DNA of 64,000 bases from Victivallis sp. Marseille-Q1083 (GTDB taxonomy: Bacteria; Verrucomicrobiota; Lentisphaeria; Victivallales; Victivallaceae), in NCBI RefSeq assembly GCF_903645315.1, contig NZ_CAHJXL010000001.1, positions 992,001 to 1,056,000 of the forward strand, given 5' to 3'. The translations under genes and the position numbers were made by a program. Each line of letters begins with the position of its first letter. Within the stretch, counting starts at the first letter, position 1. The notes below the pieces were generated by a model. The model was not told the DNA's origin. It worked only from the letters and a program-made list of their open reading frames with translations, and ran no database searches. Positions 36,749 through 37,607 of this stretch are shown here, in pieces.

Positions 36749-36798
36749 AAACAATAAAAAACCGTAAACTTCAGTTCTTACTCTGAAGCTTACGGTTT
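36749..36798 (-). terminator. Intrinsic terminator in the leader of the glycan operon
   Basis: A 16-bp stem with one mismatch (AAACCGTAAGCTTCAG/CTGAAGTTTACGGTTT, minus sense) is followed by a TTTTTTATTG tail. It lies between the promoter/repeat leader and the first NusG paralogue, and the stop codon of the repeat-containing frame falls inside it. No convincing promoter was found between it and the NusG gene, so it may be an attenuator. Confidence 0.8.
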
Positions 36799-37208
36799 CC
36801 CAAAATATCTTCCATGAAACAGGACACAATGGTCCCCTGAATGGAATCTCTTGCAAAAATATACGGAAAAAGAGCCAAGTGACACAGTATCCCAAAAACT
36901 CTTTTCAGGAAATAAAATAAAAGATTTTGCCGAATTAATTTTCCAAGGCAAAAACTGGCATAATGCTTGCTTGCTTGCTTGCTTGCTTGCTTGCTTGCTT
37001 GCTTGCTTGCTTGCTTGCTTGCTTGCTTGCTTGCTTGCTTGCTTGCTTGCTTTAAAATTTCAGCTTGATGATGTAATACATCATCAAGCTTCGTCGTGCC
37101 ACGCACGCCGAATAACGGAGACTGTGAAGGCGACGACAACACATTATCGAATAACATATTTACAGCCAACATCTGCGTCATCGTTCTTTCATTATCCAAG
37201 TTCAACAC
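36771..37208 (-). CDS. Repeat-containing leader ORF (Lys-Gln-Ala-Ser repeats), doubtful
   Basis: An open frame of up to 145 codons runs from just after a strong promoter through the tetranucleotide tract, where 22 copies encode about seven Lys-Gln-Ala-Ser units, and ends inside the terminator hairpin. It first uses TTG; ATG codons at 37181 and 37172 are possible starts. No family is recognised in the flanks. The tract contains no stop in any frame, so openness there proves nothing. It may be a phase-variable gene or a noncoding leader. Confidence 0.3.
   Translation of the reverse strand: MLNLDNERTMTQMLAVNMLFDNVLSSPSQSPLFGVRGTTKLDDVLHHQAEILKQASKQASKQASKQASKQASKQASKQASKHYASFCLGKLIRQNLLFYFLKRVFGILCHLALFPYIFARDSIQGTIVSCFMEDILGNRKLQSKN
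36965..37052. repeat. (GCTT)22 tetranucleotide tract
   Basis: Exactly 88 bases of uninterrupted GCTT (AAGC on the transcribed minus strand) start after TAAT and end before TTTAAAA. Perfect tetranucleotide arrays of this length are typical contingency loci that change copy number by slippage. It lies between a minus-strand promoter and a terminator upstream of the glycan operon. Confidence 0.97.
37062..37090. repeat. 29-bp perfect palindrome beside the GCTT tract
   Basis: AGCTTGATGATGTA and TACATCATCAAGCT form a perfect 14-bp inverted repeat around a single central base. In RNA this would need a larger loop, and in DNA it could be a protein-binding site. It is 9 bases from the GCTT tract and downstream of the promoter at 37224-37251. 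No T-run follows, so it is not a terminator. Confidence 0.85.
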
Positions 37209-37223
37209 TAAAAGTCGAAATTA

Positions 37224-37251
37224 AATATACTGCCGATTAAATAAATGTCAA
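37224..37251 (-). promoter_or_regulatory. Strong sigma70-like promoter before the repeat leader
   Basis: On the minus strand TTGACA and TATATT are separated by 16 bases. The -35 lies in a tandem duplication of CTTGACAT (37245-37260). Transcription would run through the palindrome and GCTT tract toward the NusG paralogues. Confidence 0.6.
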
Positions 37252-37607
37252 GATGTCAAGACAATTTTTACAAACTAATAAAATATCATCTTAATTCAAA
37301 TAAGACGAAAGCAATAAGCACATATATATTTTTGCAACATTAAAAGAAGCATATATATACTTCATATTTCAAAATGCTTTTTCATGAAAGAGAATGATTC
37401 ATTCCGATTCGTCAAATCCAAATAATTTACCACCCCAAAGCCACAGAAGCTGATGGCCGATGATCAACCGATGGCCTGACCGTAAGCACTGAAATACTGG
37501 CGCCTTTAAGATTTGGCTTCGCCTTGCCCGGACACGAACGGCGGAATCCGAACCCGCCGGGCCGCGACCGGGTACAACGCCCCGGAGCGGCCTGTTGCAC
37601 ATGACGT
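37252..37607. other. AT-rich intergenic stretch without a supported gene
   Basis: The left half is very AT-rich with small inverted repeats (for example GAAG...CTTC around an alternating AT core near 37350). The right half (about 37490-37607) returns to high GC just past the hydrogenase stop. A 67-codon frame at 37399-37602 has no start context or family resemblance and is not called. Confidence 0.5.

Follow-up and report, generated by a model that had tools for sequence, protein, structure and literature searches.

A Candidate Slippage-Switched Attenuator before a Surface-Glycan Operon of Victivallis, and Similar AAGC Leaders in Other Bacteria

Introduction

What might a long and perfect tetranucleotide repeat do in the leader of a surface-glycan operon? 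The question is raised by a stretch of 64,000 nucleotides of Victivallis sp. Marseille-Q1083, hereafter called the window, which corresponds to positions 992001-1056000 of contig 1 in a genome of 4.82 Mb (5 contigs, 99.7% complete). Its minus strand carries, in order of transcription, a promoter, a 29-nt palindrome, an (AAGC)22 tract, a terminator, two genes with NusG domains and a polysaccharide operon. The original prediction, made from the sequence of the window, held that slippage in the tract could change the read-through of the terminator, either by translation of the repeat-containing frame or by an effect on spacing or leader folding, and so render the expression of surface glycans phase variable.

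Several known systems are relevant to this question. The capsule loci of Bacteroides vary by promoter inversion, while classic phase variation by coding repeats includes the AAGC tracts of Neisseria. In attenuation of the trp type, translation of the leader decides whether a terminator forms. In the pil1 locus of Streptococcus gallolyticus, GCAGA repeats within a leader peptide gene change the length of the latter (Danne 2014, PMC3894217); ribosomes then destabilize a terminator that precedes the operon, a mechanism supported by mutants, and pil3 is described as being alike (PMC3894217). The UpxY proteins of Bacteroides, in turn, are described as preventing termination in the leaders upstream of upxY (PMC7819879). 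By title and start of abstract, searches of an open-licence library yielded no report of AAGC leader attenuators, or of such a switch in Lentisphaerae or Victivallis.

Materials and Methods

The reading-frame analysis was carried out with 39 tracts of Victivallales, three from the present genome and 36 from regions of its relatives; locus L126, with little sequence 3' of its tract, and locus L116, which has no tract, were left out. Terminators were called from local folds of -13 kcal/mol or lower that start at least 25 nt after the tract and within 600 nt, the most stable fold being used. A frame was considered to reach the terminator when its stop codon lies at most 12 nt before the start of the latter. 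For leaders without a called terminator, the ON state was assigned when the leader frame runs 100 nt past the tract, which is an arbitrary limit. Named genomes of other bacteria were scanned for tracts of at least seven AAGC copies, giving at least 115 stretches, 80 of them with titles; after removal of the Victivallales copies and of rows with little downstream sequence, 94 tracts were retained among the matches listed.

Results

Organization of the Leader

All the parts of the leader that had been predicted, namely the promoter with its duplication, the palindrome, the repeat tract, the terminator and the two NusG-like genes, were found on the minus strand (table 1). The palindrome folds as RNA with -18.7 kcal/mol (z -6.3), and a search of the window with Rfam gave zero matches at the gathering threshold. 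Promoter-like sites are generally commoner in the surrounding 3-kb region than in shuffled sequences (11 vs 4.7). Between the terminator and the NusG-like genes, where the original prediction had seen no convincing promoter, our scan of the minus strand from 36749 to 36608, which covered sigma-70-like sites and no other promoter types, indeed found no site with at least 9 of 12 consensus matches. A pair of 13-nt inverted repeats (36851-36863 and 37325-37337) raised the idea of a mobile element; no such pair was noticed on inspection of the two related leaders of this genome described below (L009 and L010).

Table 1. Features of the leader and of the genes that follow it (window coordinates; n, number of AAGC units)
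Feature	Position	Strand	Remarks
Promoter TTGACA-N16-TATATT	37224..37251	-	11/12 consensus matches
Duplicated CTTGACAT	37260-37245	-	Extra copy extends promoter region to 37260
Leader ORF with tract	36771..37181	-	136 codons plus stop at n = 22; putative start codon
Perfect 29-nt palindrome 5' of tract	37062..37090	-	Kept in L009 and L010
(AAGC)22 tract	36965..37052	-	Exactly 22 perfect units; TRF score 178
Stop codon for n mod 3 = 0	36935..36937	-	Predicted OFF
Stop codon for n mod 3 = 2	36790..36792	-	Terminator 5' arm; predicted ON
Stop codon for n mod 3 = 1 (present state)	36771..36773	-	Terminator 3' arm; predicted ON
Intrinsic terminator, 20-bp hairpin	36755..36802	-	-26 kcal/mol, z -7.6
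First NusG/UpxY-like gene	36093..36635	-	PF02357; no standard start codon
Second NusG-like gene	35424..36062	-	PF02357
Glycan operon, checked part	25307..35369	-	TviB-like to repeat-unit polymerase

The NusG domain of Pfam (PF02357) was recognized in both window genes with E values of 1.5e-5 and 2.8e-7, over the curated cut-off in each case. Against the UpxY model NF033644, which has a cut-off of 100 bits, the first gene scored 63.2 bits (E 2.7e-17), the second 21.4 bits and the NusG-like gene of L009 59.4 bits; hence, none of the three matches the UpxY family above its curated cut-off. Their position is that of the UpxY-type arrangement, at the head of a polysaccharide operon and behind a leader that bears a terminator. 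The prediction of two such genes needs one correction: the frame of the first is closed by a TAA at 36638-36636 and contains no ATG, GTG or TTG before the NusG domain, so that this gene may be decayed or may use a rare start codon. The checked part of the operon encodes a TviB-like dehydrogenase, a TviC-like epimerase, a protein weakly matching MatE, a pyruvyl transferase, a ferredoxin-domain protein, glycosyltransferases and a repeat-unit polymerase.

As in pil1, the tandem repeat has a unit that is not a multiple of three and lies within a leader ORF with a putative start codon, an intrinsic terminator is present between tract and operon, and the choice of frame sets whether translation stops before or within this terminator. 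A start codon lying more than 30 nt upstream, with an open frame from there into the tract, exists in one frame only, whose first ATG is at 37181; no Shine-Dalgarno match of 4 nt accompanies this ATG. The three frames leaving the tract stop 27, 172 and 191 nt after it, the terminator extending from +162 to +210. With the present 22 units, and likewise with 19 or 25, the leader ORF ends in the 3' arm of the hairpin, and with 20 or 23 units it ends in the 5' arm; with 21 or 24 units its end lies 132 nt short of the hairpin. The repeat section translates as KQAS, and the run of a single regulatory codon that characterizes trp-type attenuators is thus absent.

Copies of the Leader in the Same Genome

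AAGC tracts of at least five copies occur at three sites of the whole genome (the reversed-pattern control gave none), all of which stand upstream of glycan genes, with n = 22 in the window, 13 in L009 and 16 in L010. Both L009 and L010 have in common with the window the promoter, the leader ATG, the palindrome 9 to 11 nt 5' of the tract and a TGCCA stretch 3' of it. The frames of L009 stop at +87, +193 and +200 after the tract, with terminators from +119 to +155 and from +172 to +218; its 13 units lead to the stop at +193 and hence to a predicted ON state. A third L009 hairpin (+45 to +90, -20.0 kcal/mol) passes the loose criteria too, and all three frames reach it. In L010 the stops lie at +180, +19 and +2, of which n = 16 uses that at +19 (predicted OFF); no terminator was called there under the criteria used, and the long frame overlaps the start of a glycosyltransferase gene (+166 to +180).

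The promoter motif with no more than two mismatches is found at four sites of the genome, each before a glycan locus (one site in the reversed control). The fourth site, L116, stands before a glycan locus that includes a UpxY-like gene; TRF detected no tandem repeat in it, and a simple scan no terminator-like site. A TviB/TviC-like stretch of 2,250 bp is 99.3% identical between the window (~33100-35380) and this locus (L116:3336-5584), despite which the NusG-like genes of the two loci differ strongly; it is likely that the stretch is a site of recombination between glycan loci.

Reading Frames in Victivallales

Of 78 genomes from Victivallaceae, the family in which we place the window, 21 have tracts of at least seven AAGC units (0 of 78 in the reversed control). 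Those of at least six copies followed by a base other than A occur in 26 of 137 genomes of the order, and in 22 of 387 genomes drawn from the phylum, all 22 belonging to Victivallales. The length of the tracts in relatives varies from 5 to 33 copies.

A terminator was predicted for 29 of the 39 tracts analyzed, L010 and nine others having none. Importantly, in every one of these 29 cases one or two frames reach the terminator and the rest stop earlier, a regularity that we call the frame rule; shuffled sequences satisfied it in 14.7 cases on average (SD 2.2, maximum 24), and 0 of 1000 shuffles attained 29. In 27 of the 29, a frame stays open all the way across the hairpin (shuffles 8.4, maximum 15), the antisense strand having such a frame in only two. 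The loci being related, clustering was applied and left 12 groups, one of which has 18 members, and the rule fits all 12 (null 6.7, maximum 10). For the frames that fall short of the terminator, the median distance from tract to stop codon is 11 nt. Some of the counted terminators are doubtful, for instance that of L081, which sits inside a methyltransferase gene. In L072, L076, L077 and L078, reading by eye reveals repeated hairpin-rich units after the tract, with one frame open across them.

The long frame shows no bias at third codon positions (153/184/145 over 16 pairs), and 8 of the 11 internal gaps in its alignments are multiples of three; at most, it is the openness of the frame that seems to be kept. 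The idea that the sequence of the leader peptide is itself important was dropped because the codon-position test was negative, with no sign of selection. Shine-Dalgarno motifs were not enriched in the leaders of Victivallales (2 of 17 vs a null of 1.9, and 6 of 16 vs 3.6). With putative start ATGs, the predicted states are 6 ON and 17 OFF for 23 leaders, one more being without an ATG.

A Hairpin Built from the Repeat

A perfect stem of at least 9 bp adjoins the 3' end of the tract in 27 of the 39 Victivallales loci, and in 24 of these the last two repeat units, AAGCAAGC, constitute the start of its 5' arm. Mononucleotide shuffles gave a mean of 0.03 and a maximum of one for stems after the tract; when stems before the tract are counted too, the number of loci rises to 31 of 39. 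In L079 and L124 the stem is kept through paired changes. The hairpin pattern itself was found in 24 of 137 genomes of the order, and a stem at the tract end in only 1 of the 94 tracts of other genomes among the matches listed. We speculate that the hairpin might promote or tune slippage. In L262 (G111:C3) it follows just two AAGC copies, with terminator and open frame remaining, and this locus could perhaps be a switch locked by contraction.

AAGC Tracts in Other Bacteria

Outside Victivallales, a terminator was predicted for 46 of the 94 tracts retained among the matches listed, the other 48 being without one and some of these lying inside long genes. At least one frame reaches the terminator and at least one stops before it in 43 of these 46 listed cases (shuffles 28.9, maximum 36); after clustering of these listed cases, 32.5 of 35 groups fit (null 20.2, maximum 27). 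A fully open frame occurs in 30 of the 46 among the matches listed, vs 23.0 in shuffles, a mild enrichment since 8 of 1000 shuffles were as high, and in the same listed set the antisense frame is open in 27. The frame rule holds less sharply outside Victivallales, in a set that includes many Clostridia. A Shine-Dalgarno-like motif with a start codon opening into the tract is present in 23 of the 38 listed matches that have 70 nt upstream (null 6.3, maximum 12). The predicted states among the matches listed are 7 ON and 16 OFF.

Titled examples among the matches listed include Ruminococcus, Pseudoflavonifractor, Lawsonibacter and Oscillospiraceae. The Accumulibacter locus L194 follows the frame rule and has no Shine-Dalgarno-like motif of the above kind. 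Among the matches listed, a TTGACA box with a -10-like hexamer often stands immediately 5' of the tract, and therefore transcription might start at the tract itself. In the clostridial loci L131, L173, L184, L192 and L206, TTGACA abuts the tract, and a common stretch on its 3' side is followed by different downstream genes.

Discussion

Comparative sequence evidence supports the central claim of the original prediction, that of a slippage-switched attenuator behind phase-variable glycan expression, and we consider it quite probable that the leader is a translation-controlled attenuator of this kind, acting before the NusG-like genes and the glycan operon. RNA polymerase would start at the promoter of table 1, and ribosomes would translate the leader from its presumed first ATG. 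Slipped-strand mispairing would shift n by units of 4 bp, thereby changing the frame of the ribosomes that emerge from the tract. At n = 19, 20, 22, 23 or 25, the ribosome would mask the hairpin and permit read-through into the NusG-like genes and the operon (ON); since a bound ribosome has a footprint of ~30 nt (PMC3894217), either of the two long stops would suffice for this masking. With n = 21 or 24, ribosomes would leave 132 nt too early, the terminator would form and the operon would be OFF. The NusG-like genes lie behind the terminator, and hence read-through may also supply antiterminators to the long operon, a possible feedback. Because the rule is simple (n modulo 3 and the place of the terminator), an assembly suffices to predict the state, and ordinary metagenome reads can serve to check it.

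Of the three routes originally envisaged for the effect of the tract, translation of the repeat frame is the one favored, because the exit frame of the ribosomes would determine whether the terminator is reached; nothing was found in favor of spacing or leader folding. An explanation that dispenses with translation, and lets tract length act by RNA folding, spacing or the binding of a protein, could account for the hairpin kept beside the tract in most Victivallales loci (31 of 39), which the translation route leaves unexplained, and it would suit the several Clostridia in which a possible transcription start lies just 5' of the tract. Yet the frame rule makes no sense without translation, and in the window ~170 nt separate the -10 box from the tract that follows it, so that promoter spacing is not set by the tract; we regard this explanation as decidedly improbable. 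Somewhat less improbable, though still unlikely, is a different output of the same switch, in which the long frame serves translational coupling or prevents polarity at the start of the next gene and the terminator is secondary. The overlap of the long frame with the glycosyltransferase start in L010, a leader without a called terminator, would agree with such coupling, as would L109, L118 and L121, where the stop codon of the long frame shares two bases with the ATG that follows. In the window, however, both long stops fall within the -26 kcal/mol terminator and are separated from the NusG-like frame downstream by well over 100 nt.

The openness of the leader ORF for 136 codons might also suggest an ordinary phase-variable small gene, the ORF with KQAS repeats (P0001) producing a working protein and the operon having its own promoter; L081 and L113, in which a long gene continues the frame of the tract, in the manner of classic coding repeats, offer a parallel. 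However, P0001 has no Pfam match above cut-off, the comparable part of the ORF in relatives lacks codon-position bias and no promoter-like site was found ahead of the NusG-like genes, so that we give this possibility very little credence. A microsatellite without function is hardly conceivable given that position, promoter, hairpin and frame logic all recur.

The translation-controlled switch proposed here resembles pil1 and pil3, as described in the cited report, in having a non-triplet repeat within a leader ORF, a terminator before the operon and frame-dependent stops (PMC3894217). It differs from them, on the same description, in its repeat and setting (AAGC, Lentisphaerota and a glycan operon with NusG-like genes, instead of GCAGA and a Streptococcus pilus), in the presence of at least three copies in one genome (L010 showing no terminator) and in the palindrome or hairpin beside the tract. 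Moreover, the mechanism of pil1 has been demonstrated by experiment (PMC3894217), whereas the same mechanism is here proposed from comparative sequence evidence. The likeness to the UpxY loci of Bacteroides resides in a NusG paralogue encoded first in a polysaccharide operon, with termination occurring in the 5' leader that precedes its gene (PMC7819879); according to that account UpxY itself stops termination, whereas in the window the decision appears to fall to a repeat within a translated leader, and the NusG-like genes score under the UpxY cut-off. Classic coding repeats such as the AAGC tracts of Neisseria have in common with the present system that slippage of a tetranucleotide shifts the reading frame, but their tract lies in the switched gene, not in a separate leader ORF; L081 and L113 are closer to the classic kind. 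As in trp-type attenuation, translation of the leader would control the terminator, with the difference that the variable is the reading frame instead of stalling at regulatory codons.

What looks new with respect to pil1 is the breadth across phyla, together with a hairpin made of repeat units. We would give even chances to the broader proposition that (AAGC)n leader attenuators form a widespread and so far unrecognized class of contingency switches, reused across phyla (Victivallales, Oscillospiraceae, other Clostridia and perhaps Accumulibacter) to flip whole operons, often for surface factors, with a hairpin that possibly tunes slippage in Victivallales and with three leaders, under a common promoter motif, that would let different surface glycans of this genome switch independently. 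If true, a pilus mechanism known from two operons of one Streptococcus species would be a general route to the phase variation of operons, and there would be an explanation for surface glycans that differ from cell to cell in a phylum little studied so far.

Surface functions are common, not universal, among the cargo of AAGC leaders. The eight downstream proteins that were scanned comprise an MBOAT acyltransferase, two AIDA-type stalk proteins, an SPFH/zinc-ribbon protein, a PEGA-domain protein, a C5 DNA methyltransferase, a ketoacyl-synthase-III-like protein and one protein without match. The AIDA-type autotransporter stalk proteins are found behind AAGC leaders in Lentisphaerae MAGs (L070:5571-9347 and L078:2913-4622). 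The C5 DNA methyltransferase of L081 (G070:C26) has (AAGC)7 in the 5' end of its gene and is predicted to be OFF in the assembly; it is a possible case of a phase-variable methyltransferase. AAGC tracts of at least six copies are also present in 15 stretches of viral contigs (L242-L256).
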